Source: Microbacterium sp. SMR1
GTDB taxonomy: Bacteria; Actinomycetota; Actinomycetes; Actinomycetales; Microbacteriaceae
NCBI RefSeq assembly: GCF_003289625.1
Contig: NZ_QMBN01000001.1
Span: 434,001 to 498,000 of the forward strand
DNA length: 64,000 bases
Direction of reading: 5' to 3'
Positions 38,227 through 41,859 of this stretch are shown one piece after another. Made by a program: the position numbers and the translations under genes. The notes below the pieces were generated by a model that was not told where the DNA came from, made no database searches, and was given only the letters and a program-made list of their open reading frames with translations. Position 1 is the first letter of the stretch, and the number at the start of each line of letters is the position of its first letter.

Positions 38227-39552
38227 ATGACCGATTCGAGCGCGCTCTTCTCCGGGCAGACGCCGCTCGCGGTGCGGATGCGCCCCACCTCGCTCGACGA
38301 GGTCGCGGGCCAGGGGCATCTGCTGCGGCCCGGCTCGCCCCTGGTCGCCCTCGCGTCGCGCGACGGCAACCGGGCGGGAGCGGTCTCCGTCATTTTGTGG
38401 GGGCCGCCCGGCACCGGCAAGACCACGCTCGCGCAGGCGATCGCCCGCTCGTCGGGCCGCCGCTTCGTCGAGCTGTCGGCGGTCACGGCCGGTGTGAAGG
38501 ACGTGCGCGAGGTCATGCAAGAGGCGATGACGCAGCGCGACCTCTACGGCATCTCGACGATCCTGTTCCTCGACGAGATCCACCGCTTCACGAAGGCGCA
38601 GCAGGATGCTCTGCTGCCGGGCGTCGAGAACGGCTGGGTCCTGCTCATCGCCGCGACGACCGAGAACCCGTCGTTCTCCGTCGTCGCGCCCCTGCTGTCC
38701 CGCTCGCTGCTGCTCACCCTCCAGCCGCTCAGCGACGATGACCTCGGCGGGCTCATCGACCGCGCCGTCGCGGACGCCCGCGGACTCGCCGGCTTGGTCG
38801 TCCTGGCCGATGATGCGCGGACGGCGCTGATCCGGCTGGCCTCCGGCGATGCCCGACGCGCGCTGACGTCGCTCGAGGCCGCCGCGACGATGGCCGAGCC
38901 CGGCGATGACGACGAGGCGCCGGTCATCACCGCTGACCACGTGGCTCAGGCGGTCGACCGTGCATTGCTCCGGTACGACAGGCAGGGCGACGAGCACTAC
39001 GACGTCATCAGCGCGTTCATCAAGTCGATCCGCGGATCGGATGTCGATGCCGCCATGCACTACCTGGCTCGGATGATCGAGGCGGGCGAAGATCCTCGGT
39101 TCATCGCGCGGCGCCTGGTCATCTCAGCCTCTGAAGACATCGGCCTGGCCGATCCGCAGGCTCTCACGATCGCCGTTGCCGCCGCCGACGCGGTCGCTTT
39201 CATCGGGATGCCGGAAGGCCGCATCCCGCTCGCCGAAGCCACGGCGTATCTCGCGACCACCGCCAAGTCGAACGCCGCCTACAACGCGATCAACGCGGCC
39301 ATCTCCGATGTCCGCGCCGGCGGGTTCGGTCGCGTGCCCAAACATCTGCGCGATGCTCACTATGCCGGCGCGAAGCGGCTGGGGCACGGCAAGGGGTACG
39401 TCTATCCGCACGACCTCGAGGTCGGCGTCGCGACCCAGCAGTACCTCCCCGACGAATTGCGGGGCAAGCGGTACTACGAGCCGACGAATCGCGGTGTCGA
39501 GCGCGAGATCGGCGCGCGGGTCGAGAAGCTGCGGAAGATCCTGGGGGACTGA
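38227..39552 (+). CDS. rarA: replication-associated recombination AAA+ ATPase RarA (MgsA)
   Basis: A 441-residue clamp-loader-like ATPase acting at stalled replication forks. Walker A is GPPGTGKTT (59-67), Walker B is ILFLDEIHRF (D116, E117), sensor 1 is AATTENPS, and the arginine-finger segment is PLLSRSLLL. The C-terminal MgsA tetramerisation domain has DVISAFIKSIRGSD and PLAEATAYLATTAKSNAAY. The ATG is 6 nt after TAGCCT (38215-38220) with GAGAGG between. The NUDIX-TPR-NUDIX gene begins 3 bp after the stop, so the two form an operon. Confidence 0.97.
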   Translation: MTDSSALFSGQTPLAVRMRPTSLDEVAGQGHLLRPGSPLVALASRDGNRAGAVSVILWGPPGTGKTTLAQAIARSSGRRFVELSAVTAGVKDVREVMQEAMTQRDLYGISTILFLDEIHRFTKAQQDALLPGVENGWVLLIAATTENPSFSVVAPLLSRSLLLTLQPLSDDDLGGLIDRAVADARGLAGLVVLADDARTALIRLASGDARRALTSLEAAATMAEPGDDDEAPVITADHVAQAVDRALLRYDRQGDEHYDVISAFIKSIRGSDVDAAMHYLARMIEAGEDPRFIARRLVISASEDIGLADPQALTIAVAAADAVAFIGMPEGRIPLAEATAYLATTAKSNAAYNAINAAISDVRAGGFGRVPKHLRDAHYAGAKRLGHGKGYVYPHDLEVGVATQQYLPDELRGKRYYEPTNRGVEREIGARVEKLRKILGD

Positions 39553-39555
39553 GCC

Positions 39556-41073
39556 GTGGACGATCCCGCACCCGCGTGGACGCTGCTGGGCTCGTCGCCC
39601 GCCTTCGACGGCTACGTGCGCGTGCGCCGCGACCGCTACCTGCTGCCCGACGGCAGTGAGAGCGACTGGGATGTCGTCGAGGTCGGCGACACCGTCACGG
39701 TGGTCGCGGTCACGCCCGACGACACCGTCGTGCTGTTCGATCAGTACCGCGTCGGCCCCCAGCGCGTGCTGGGCGAGCTGCCCGGCGGGCTGATCGATCC
39801 CGGTGAGGACGCTGTCGCGGCGGGCGTGCGAGAGCTGCTGGAGGAGACCGGGTATCGTGCCGGCGCCGTCTTCGACGCCGGCGGTGAGTGGGCCGCCGCG
39901 AACGCGCGGCGACGACGGCACGTGGTCATCGCCGCCGACTGTCTGCGCGTCGCCGCGCCGGAATGGGGCGAGCACGAGACGGGTCGGGTGCGGACGATCG
40001 CGGCATCCGACCTCATCGATCACCTGACTGCCGGCGAGACCAGCGACGGCGGGCCCGCCCTGCGGGGGCTCATCCGCTTCGCGGCGAGTCGGGGCGTCGA
40101 CCCCGCACTCCGCGCTCTGCAGTCTCGCGTGCGGGAGCTTCTCGCGACGTTCCCCGCCGACGACGACACGACGGCCGGTGCCGATCCGTTCGACGCGTTC
40201 TGGGATGCCGCCGACGGGAAGAACGCCGCCGCCCTGTGGGCCGAGCTCGACCAGCTCGCCGGGCACTCGGCCGAGGCGGTGCGCAGCTACGAGCGCGCCT
40301 CGCTGCACGACTTCCTCGGTGAGGAAGCCGAGGCGATCCCGCTGTACCGGTCGGCGCTCGAGGCGGGCCTGGCCGGAAAGCGGCGCTCCGCGTGCGTCAT
40401 CCAATTGGCGAGCTCGCTGCGCAACGTCGGCGATCCCTCGGGCGCTCTCGCACTGCTGCACCGCTTTCCCGACACCGATCCGCTCGTCGACGCCGCCCGG
40501 GCGTTCGAGGCGCTGGCGCTGTTCACCGATCAGAAGCCCGCGCCCGCACTCCGGACGGCGCTGCAGGCGCTCGCGCCACACCTCCCGGCCTACCGCCGTT
40601 CGGTGGAGGCGTACGCAGCCGACCTCACCTCGCCTCGCCGTATCCGGGTCATCTCGGTCGCCGTCATCGTCGCTGACGGGTACGTCCTCGCGGAGGAGTA
40701 CGCCGGCGGGCCGGGCGCTGGGCCGTTCCTCCGAGCACCCGGCGGCGGCGTGGAGTTCGGTGAGACCGCGGCGGCCGCCATGCGCCGCGAGCTGCGCGAG
40801 GAGCTCGCCGCCGGCGTCGACGAACTCACGCTGCTCACCGTGAACGAGAACATCTTCGACGACGGTCGCAAGAGCGGGCACGAGATCGCGCATGTCTTCG
40901 CCGTCCGCAGCGCCACGCTCGAGGCGCTGCCCCTCGGGGAACGGCTCACGGTGCTCGACGGAGACACCTCCGTCGGCTGGTATCGCATCGACGACCTGCG
41001 ACGCGATGCGACCCCGTTCTACCCGGTCGGCGTCCTCGACCTCGCCGCCGCGGTCGACGCGGACGCCGTCTGA
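39556..41073 (+). CDS. three-domain NUDIX - tetratricopeptide - NUDIX protein
   Basis: A single 505-residue ORF holds three domains. An N-terminal ADP-ribose-pyrophosphatase-like NUDIX (about 1-175) has a complete box G78-x5-E84-x7-R92-E93-x2-E96-E97-x-G99. A middle tetratrico-peptide-repeat group 5-type domain spans about 210-355 (DPFDAFWDAADG, LHDFLGEEAEAIPLYRSAL, VIQLASSLRNVGDPSGALALL). A second, distinct NUDIX (about 363-500) has G397-x5-E403-x7-R411-E412-x2-E415-E416, with Ala in place of the final Gly. NUDIX enzymes hydrolyse nucleoside diphosphates linked to another moiety; the substrates here are unknown. The frame is uninterrupted. GTG starts 3 bp after rarA, and an rpsD promoter begins at the stop. 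Confidence 0.9.
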   Translation: MDDPAPAWTLLGSSPAFDGYVRVRRDRYLLPDGSESDWDVVEVGDTVTVVAVTPDDTVVLFDQYRVGPQRVLGELPGGLIDPGEDAVAAGVRELLEETGYRAGAVFDAGGEWAAANARRRRHVVIAADCLRVAAPEWGEHETGRVRTIAASDLIDHLTAGETSDGGPALRGLIRFAASRGVDPALRALQSRVRELLATFPADDDTTAGADPFDAFWDAADGKNAAALWAELDQLAGHSAEAVRSYERASLHDFLGEEAEAIPLYRSALEAGLAGKRRSACVIQLASSLRNVGDPSGALALLHRFPDTDPLVDAARAFEALALFTDQKPAPALRTALQALAPHLPAYRRSVEAYAADLTSPRRIRVISVAVIVADGYVLAEEYAGGPGAGPFLRAPGGGVEFGETAAAAMRRELREELAAGVDELTLLTVNENIFDDGRKSGHEIAHVFAVRSATLEALPLGERLTVLDGDTSVGWYRIDDLRRDATPFYPVGVLDLAAAVDADAV

Positions 41074-41229: not shown

Positions 41230-41859
41230 GTGACCACGAAGTCTCAGGACCGCCGCAAGGTCCGTCTGTCGCGCGCCCTCGGCGTCGCGCTGACCCCGAA
41301 GGCCGCCCGCTACCTCGAGAAGCGTCCCTACGCTCCGGGTGAGCACGGCCGCACCAAGCGCAAGGCCGACAGCGACTACGCCGTCCGTCTGCGCGAGAAG
41401 CAGCGTCTGCGCGAGCAGTACGGCATCCGCGAGAAGCAGCTGCGCATCCAGTTCAACGAGGCCCGCCGCAAGGACGGTCTGACCGGTGAGAACCTGGTCG
41501 AGCAGCTCGAGATGCGTCTGGACGCGCTCGTCGTTCGTGCCGGTTTCGCCCGCACGACCGCACAGGCCCGCCAGCTGGTCGTGCACCGTCACATCCTCGT
41601 CGACGGCCAGCTCGTCGACCGCCCGTCGTTCCGCGTGAAGCCGGGTCAGCTCATCCACGTCAAGGAGAAGAGCGAGTCGCTCGAGCCCTTCCAGGTCGCA
41701 GCCGCCGGCGGTCACGCCGACGTCCTGCCCCCGGTCCCGGGCTACCTCGAGGTCGAGCTCGACAAGCTGCAGGCGCGCCTCGTGCGCCGCCCGAAGCGCG
41801 CCGAGGTGCCCGTCACGTGTGACGTGCAGCTCGTCGTCGAGTACTACGCCGCGCGCTGA
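41230..41859 (+). CDS. rpsD: 30S ribosomal protein S4
   Basis: The 209-residue primary rRNA-binding protein of the 30S subunit, which nucleates assembly on 16S rRNA. The C-terminal S4 RNA-binding domain is clear: EMRLDALVVRAGFARTTAQARQLVVHRHILVDG (in part) and RPSFRVKPGQLIHV. The N-terminus RKVRLSRALGVALTPKA is the usual actinobacterial type, without zinc cysteines. It starts with GTG behind AAGGAGAG. As in other actinobacteria with this layout, it stands apart from the rpsM-rpsK-rpoA cluster and precedes alaS. Confidence 0.98.
   Translation: MTTKSQDRRKVRLSRALGVALTPKAARYLEKRPYAPGEHGRTKRKADSDYAVRLREKQRLREQYGIREKQLRIQFNEARRKDGLTGENLVEQLEMRLDALVVRAGFARTTAQARQLVVHRHILVDGQLVDRPSFRVKPGQLIHVKEKSESLEPFQVAAAGGHADVLPPVPGYLEVELDKLQARLVRRPKRAEVPVTCDVQLVVEYYAAR

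Follow-up and report, generated by a model that had tools for sequence, protein, structure and literature searches.

A single gene directly behind rarA in Microbacterium sp. SMR1 encodes a protein in which two different NUDIX domains enclose a TPR_5 domain. It was found in a stretch of 64,000 nucleotides, referred to here as the window, and the fusion is a real, conserved composite protein that does not result from a sequencing error. It is probably a two-site hydrolase for nucleotide house-cleaning, with the TPR part acting as a spacer or dock. The overall reading favoured here, with moderate confidence, is that of a composite Nudix hydrolase with two sites and a TPR spacer or dock, whose N-terminal domain is an optional module, whose gene is probably coupled to rarA in translation and which is restricted so far to Microbacterium. 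The genes and domains concerned are the following (positions in the window; N, T and C denote the three parts of the protein):

38227..39552, + strand: rarA (MgsA-type AAA+ ATPase), upstream; Pfam MgsA_C (E 3.2e-72), AAA_assoc_2 and AAA
39556..41073, + strand: NUDIX-TPR_5-NUDIX fusion gene, one open reading frame of 505 codons (505 aa) with a GTG start; Pfam
39556..40149, + strand: N-terminal NUDIX domain (N), residues 1-198, ADP-ribose/NDP-sugar pyrophosphatase-like; Pfam, sequence and fold matches in the PDB
39787..39855, + strand: Nudix box 1, residues 78-100, canonical GX5EX7REUXEEXG; translation
40150..40179, + strand: linker of variable length among orthologues; pLDDT below 50 at residues 200-208, gapped alignment columns
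40180..40626, + strand: TPR_5 region (T), a helical solenoid, residues 209-357; Pfam (243-357), model helices, BH0479 (3k9i)
40639..41058, + strand: C-terminal NUDIX domain (C), residues 362-501, MutT-like; Pfam (365-484), VIA alignments with 2pqv, 4dyw and MutT 3a6t
40744..40812, + strand: Nudix box 2, residues 397-419, with Ala418 for the final Gly; translation
41230..41859, + strand: rpsD (ribosomal protein S4), downstream flank; Pfam Ribosomal_S4 and S4

Architecture and conservation of the fusion protein

The rarA stop codon ends at 39552, which leaves a gap of 3 nt to the GTG of the fusion gene, and the frame is uninterrupted, as the first-pass annotation of this DNA had stated. In the Pfam search, the protein scored 87.3 bits against NUDIX (PF00293; cut-off 21.1 bits, E 1.1e-24), with two matches above the cut-off (window 39691-40011 and 40648-41007), and 126.7 bits against TPR_5 (PF12688; cut-off 24.2 bits, E 7e-37) over residues 243-357. 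These matches and the translation confirmed the two different NUDIX boxes that had been placed around a TPR_5 domain. The AlphaFold2 model, obtained with a 22-row alignment, reached a mean pLDDT of 85.4 and a pTM of 0.41, so that the packing of the domains is not fixed by it; a NUDIX fold (9-177), a set of helices (183-356) and a second NUDIX fold (362-501) were formed, with residues 200-208 as a loose linker. When T-C was modelled alone, the pLDDT was 89.7 and the pTM 0.61.

Full-length relatives were detected, among the matches listed, in 21 of the 366 Microbacterium genomes searched (the window's own included), and M. arborescens was a further case, giving a total of 22 with the window; L032 (M. 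sp. Yaish 1) and G211 were counted once. All 22 are open through the three domains, measure 500-517 aa and have rpsD downstream, and both TPR_5 and NUDIX were matched by Pfam in every one of them. One TGA is listed for G124 and for G160, and the coordinates place it at the gene's own stop. The domain search and the genome count proposed in the first-pass annotation gave the same three-domain order in 22 genomes, each time right behind rarA. The dN/dS was between 0.10 and 0.34 in N, T and C alike in the ten pairs tried (10/10), which indicates purifying selection on every domain in these pairs.

Additionally, at least 22 more of the 366 genomes carry, among the matches listed, the TPR and C-terminal NUDIX parts without a fused N, and two of these T-C genomes (G008 and G349) carry N as a separate frame. 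In a family scan of 398 genomes, a set that includes Microbacterium, the window's fusion was the only one found at E <= 1e-32; the N piece was matched in G397 and G404 and the T piece in G513 and G565. The match in G565 extends beyond a stop, and its locus (L064) appears to encode a TPR protein of 166 aa. A class scan of 394 genomes with a T-C profile (E <= 1e-12) gave T and C in one match only in G000 and G082, both of them Microbacterium. The best three, four and five candidates per genome were scored in the family, genus and class scans, respectively; since so few were scored and the weaker matches of the genus scan were listed in part, weak fusions may be missed. In the genomes sampled, the fusion has been found so far only in some Microbacterium.

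Nudix boxes and candidate activities

Box 1 reads G78-x5-E84-x7-R92-E93-L-x-E96-E97-T-G99 and fits GX5EX7REUXEEXGU, its final hydrophobic position being occupied by Tyr. Box 2 (G397-x5-E403-x7-R411-E412-L-x-E415-E416-L-A418) retains the G, E, R, E, E and E, and its final Gly is replaced by Ala, as had been noticed in the first-pass annotation. In the alignment of the 22 orthologues, G78, E84, R92, E93, E96, E97 and G99 of the first box were invariant (22/22), and so were G397, E403, R411, E412, E415 and E416 of the second. E141 was also invariant in all 22, without this implying that it corresponds to E142, the catalytic base of Rv1700 (MT-ADPRase), which is located in a loop that follows the box. 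Position 418 is variable, with Ala in nine orthologues, Gly in seven and Asp in six. According to passages in PMC5389931, DR_0079, an active pyrimidine-NTP diphosphatase, has Asn at the final-Gly position of its box; therefore, a change at this position is no sign of inactivity, and the suggestion that Ala418 may alter the activity was not supported.

The N half matched by sequence the PDB chains of a methanol dehydrogenase activator (E 1.5e-10), an ADP-ribose pyrophosphatase (E 2e-10) and NudF (E 1.5e-08); 8wv3, 9jax and 5c7q were among the entries matched. Its nearest structures by fold were 2yvm (NDX2, Z 18.1) and 5c7q (NDP-sugar hydrolase, Z 16.6), and other ADPRases, including Rv1700, were also near. 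The C half matched by sequence the MutT/NUDIX protein 4dyw (E 2.3e-07) and chains of geranyl diphosphate phosphohydrolase and Nudix hydrolase 1; by fold, 2pqv was the nearest (Z 15.4), with MutT, Nudix hydrolase and ADPRase chains tied at about 14. Because NUDIX chains filled the Foldseek and VIA lists, the comparison of the TPR part with the PDB was confined to sequence, and it gave a match to BH0479 (3k9i, E 6.3e-07).

None of the NCBIfam cut-offs was reached by the fusion protein among the families listed, and therefore no substrate is named. It scored 62.9 of 169 bits for NudE (NF008736) and 43.3 of 97.9 bits for the MutT 8-oxo-dGTP diphosphatase (TIGR00586), both below the equivalog cut-off, 18.2 of 79.55 bits for the ADP-ribose diphosphatase YffH/AdpP (TIGR00052), below the subfamily cut-off, and 20.1 of 475 bits for MutT1 (NF052459), whose best stretch (75-102) lies in the N half and not in the C half. 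A role as a defence system was also considered and rejected: the sole PADLOC match, PDC-S07 (45.8 bits, E 1.1e-12), consists of two stretches, the best of which (366-431) is the front of the C-terminal NUDIX domain, and was taken as general NUDIX likeness; there was no other defence sign.

From these likenesses we infer that the N domain would cut NDP-X compounds of the ADP-ribose or NDP-sugar kind, whereas the substrates of the C domain would be (d)NTP-like or comparable small nucleotides. At both sites, the glutamates of the respective box would presumably work with Mg in the way usual for Nudix enzymes. Joining both NUDIX domains, the TPR_5 solenoid would probably offer a surface for docking or self-association. 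The hydrolase proposed in the first-pass annotation is supported to this extent, as a reading of the sequence. The genome of the window holds 12 further NUDIX matches besides the two of the fusion in the Pfam search, and therefore the activity may be redundant; a second TPR_5 match was not found in this genome by Pfam.

Alternatively, one or both NUDIX domains could sense a nucleotide, as in NrtR, with the TPR domain, a module that often mediates partner binding, relaying the signal to another protein. Passages in PMC5389931 describe noncatalytic Nudix domains as typical of multidomain proteins, and NrtR-type Nudix regulators sense ADPr according to passages in PMC9503650. However, neither box varies in its catalytic-motif residues across the 22 orthologues, the dN/dS is low and no DNA-binding domain was detected by Pfam in the window protein, and a sensor is regarded as unlikely.

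It is rather improbable, too, that damaged nucleotides are processed at the two NUDIX sites one after the other, by analogy with MutT1 and ADPRase of mycobacteria, in such a way that 8-oxo-(d)GTP would be converted to the diphosphate at one site and then to the monophosphate at the other. The mycobacterial enzymes divide the steps between them, one leading to the diphosphate and the other to the monophosphate, and the title of Patil 2013 reportedly speaks of two stages for this pair. Degradation of 8-oxo-(d)GTP and 8-oxo-GDP by MutT1 and ADPRase of M. tuberculosis is stated in PMC8784731, and the nearest structures are of the ADPRase type, Rv1700 included, for the N half and of the MutT type for the C half. 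Nevertheless, fold likeness gives no substrates, the low MutT1 score falls in the wrong half for such a series, and N is absent in the T-C species, having been lost or exchanged repeatedly. Since these species lack N, the C site would have no need of it. The multi-step hydrolase of the first-pass annotation is supported in its hydrolase reading, and the obligatory coupling of its two sites is weakened by these species. Within the favoured composite hydrolase, T-C would be the steadier core and N an optional domain, present as a separate coupled gene in two species.

The rarA-rpsD gap and the history of the N domain

Seven loci of other genera were read. No N, T or C lay between rarA and rpsD in the six with rpsD in view (6/6), and no rpsD was seen in the seventh (L125). 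Within Microbacterium, the gap had no N, T or C in 29 of 79 rows (some with other inserts), and its states ranged over N, T, C, N+T, N|T-C, T-C, N-T-C and empty. The whole set of 86 rows comprised 22 N-T-C, 15 T-C, 5 with C alone, 4 with T alone, 2 split N|T-C, 1 with N alone, 1 N+T, 29 with none and 7 of other genera, counts that are not frequencies since the genomes were chosen partly for having a match. The gap holds no N, T or C in the outgroups and in these 29 rows, and therefore it looks like a landing site rather than the seat of an old rarA partner. In nine of the 22 fusion loci there is an extra stretch of about 0.8 kb before rpsD. A DUF1361-type membrane protein gene was observed between the fusion and rpsD in one locus (L132:3044-3778), and L134 and L136 contain what seem, by eye, to be similar genes; therefore, the place tolerates insertions. 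In five other Microbacterium loci (L085, L087, L091, L102 and L104), a C-type NUDIX gene with 47-56% identity to the C half stands alone behind rarA.

Several N-T-C and T-C species share a start at GTGACTGA, which holds the rarA stop, and N is therefore either there as a cleanly delimited in-frame block or missing altogether, as seen in G046 (N-T-C) versus G147 (T-C), whose T-C parts are 91.9% identical. The stop of N overlaps the next start by 4 nt in G008 and G349 (N|T-C) and in G330 (N|T), the N piece of the latter being truncated (114 aa). In G008 and G349, 31-39 residues are missing from the front of T in the T-C frame; fission would account for this, and so would a state preceding the fusion.

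A backbone tree of 86 rows was built from the rarA tail, rpsD and alaS by a quick search, after G041, G010, G014 and G201 (a T-C genome) were dropped for short sequence. The T-C protein tree and the constraint test were also quick searches, and the N tree and the tests on G046 and G175 were careful ones. On the backbone, the N-T-C rows, the split rows and 14 of the 15 T-C rows fell into one supported clade of 39, which includes one empty species. N-T-C and T-C species interleave on both the backbone and the T-C tree. The backbone requires 10 changes for N-T-C, of which 7 or more are forced by starred branches, and the T-C tree requires 9, with 6 or more forced; N-T-C as a single clade was rejected (p-AU 2.8e-70; quick tree, 44 rows). 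The main blocks of the N tree largely agree with those of the backbone, and the Spearman coefficients against backbone distances were 0.69 for N, 0.75 for T and 0.65 for C, so that N tracks the backbone about as closely as the other two parts. The change counts alone cannot separate loss of N from gain; the evidence favours repeated loss rather than repeated gain, with perhaps a re-gain sometimes, and T-C is therefore the steadier core.

On the backbone, G046 (N-T-C) sits among the T-C species G147, G015, G350 and G146. The N tree pairs its N domain with the one from G149 (99/94), a grouping of G046 and G149 that the backbone rejects (p-AU 6.8e-07), and G280+G046 was only just not rejected by the N data (p-AU 0.052). 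It is possible that the N of G046, whose sister G147 has none, was re-gained by recombination, and a purely vertical descent of N is not secure. In G175, a distant species, N clusters with the split-type sequences of G349 and G008 (97/91). The data did not reject a tree in which the G175 domain branches outside the rest of the Microbacterium N domains (p-AU 0.18; 27-row N tree), and therefore the hint of a transfer is weak. The TPR-NUDIX part was not found in G175, and a 4-base repeat run was observed right after the stop of its lone N-NUDIX gene (L155, oriented position ~2055).

Standalone TPR_5 relatives of about 160-200 aa were found by the genus search in many Microbacterium, and in six of the eight loci read (L007, L008, L010, L012, L014 and L017) they lie between genes read as tig and clpP1-clpP2. 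When the L008 copy was used as the query in 80 genomes, an identity of at least 56%, a threshold set after seeing the list and just above the best rarA-site T itself (55%), was reached in 0 of 44 genomes with T at the rarA site versus 17 of 36 others, the species being related. Moreover, an additional TPR_5 at a greater distance (35-46%) is present in 14 of the 44. Given the post hoc threshold, the relatedness and these second copies, a mutual exclusion of the rarA-site T and the close tig-clpP copy is a hint only, to which no statistic is attached. No TPR_5 was present in the tig-clpP gap of six genomes looked at. In another genus, a standalone N-NUDIX relative (L062, 1501-2076, minus strand) has a similar AGxEWxAANSxRRKH stretch, and a gene resembling rbfA (named by eye) lies near it.

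The start of the fusion is within 13 nt of the rarA stop, or overlaps it, in 15 of the 22 loci, the start counted being the first start codon at most 20 nt before the end of that stop. Because of the 3-nt gap or the overlaps, translation is likely coupled to rarA, and the fusion would probably be made together with RarA. A partnership with RarA at replication forks, in which the protein would clean up nucleotides at the fork, would agree with its position right behind rarA in 22/22 and with the frequent overlap of stop and start, but such a gene is missing from the gap in 6/6 readable outgroup loci and 29/79 Microbacterium rows, the DUF1361 gene of L132 also sits between rarA and rpsD, and relatives of N or T exist away from rarA; this role is highly improbable. 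The landing site explains the rarA neighbourhood, the functional tie to rarA drawn in the first-pass annotation found no support, and no new fork-repair factor is shown by these data. Finally, the joining of three genes by a sequencing or assembly error, to which the separate frames of N and T-C in two species could point, is ruled out by the 22 intact full-length members, the other 21 of which are 53-85% identical to the window protein, and has practically no chance of being correct.

Read as a composite hydrolase, the fusion may link ADP-ribose/NDP-sugar and MutT-type clean-up. With the series of states at one site, the genus would allow a direct test of how a multidomain enzyme may arise from coupled genes and be trimmed afterwards. 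A bolder account, given a small chance, would see a single-chain two-enzyme clean-up protein with a TPR dock, assembled from coupled genes at the landing site behind rarA, in which ADPRase-like and MutT-like sites would act on linked substrates (e.g., oxidised (d)GTP and then the diphosphate) and the optional N would tune the protein between species.

Comparison with known proteins

A described NUDIX-TPR-NUDIX protein was not found in the open-licence PMC literature, which was covered mostly at listing level, in agreement with the first-pass annotation. As far as searched, the domain order is new and built from known kinds of domain, and NUDIX-TPR_5-NUDIX is added here as an order unseen in that open literature. 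Tandem NUDIX as such is already known: passages in PMC5389931 put the number of two-Nudix proteins among those it collected at seven and cite Lin 2009 on double Nudix proteins, and the words TPR and tetratricopeptide are absent from the part of its main text that was covered.

The N half shares sequence matches, the canonical box and the fold (Z 14-18 over ~166-185 residues) with NudF and the ADP-ribose and NDP-sugar pyrophosphatases (5c7q, 5c7t, 2yvm, Rv1700); unlike them, it is joined to TPR_5 and a second NUDIX domain, and the identity is ~18-26%. The C half resembles the MutT-type Nudix hydrolases 4dyw, 2pqv and 3a6t by fold (Z ~14-15 over 120-133 residues) and in the box glutamates that it keeps, although ADPRases fit it nearly as well (Z ~14); in contrast to the MutT type, it stays under the MutT equivalog cut-off, has Ala as the final box residue and lies within a fusion. 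The double MutT/Nudix proteins that Lin 2009 is said to treat likewise have two Nudix domains in one chain; an intervening TPR domain has no report among them in the open-licence PMC literature, whereas here TPR_5 lies between the two. The middle domain is similar to BH0479 and the TPR_5 family, of which standalone relatives occur in many Microbacterium, while in this protein it is flanked by two enzyme domains.
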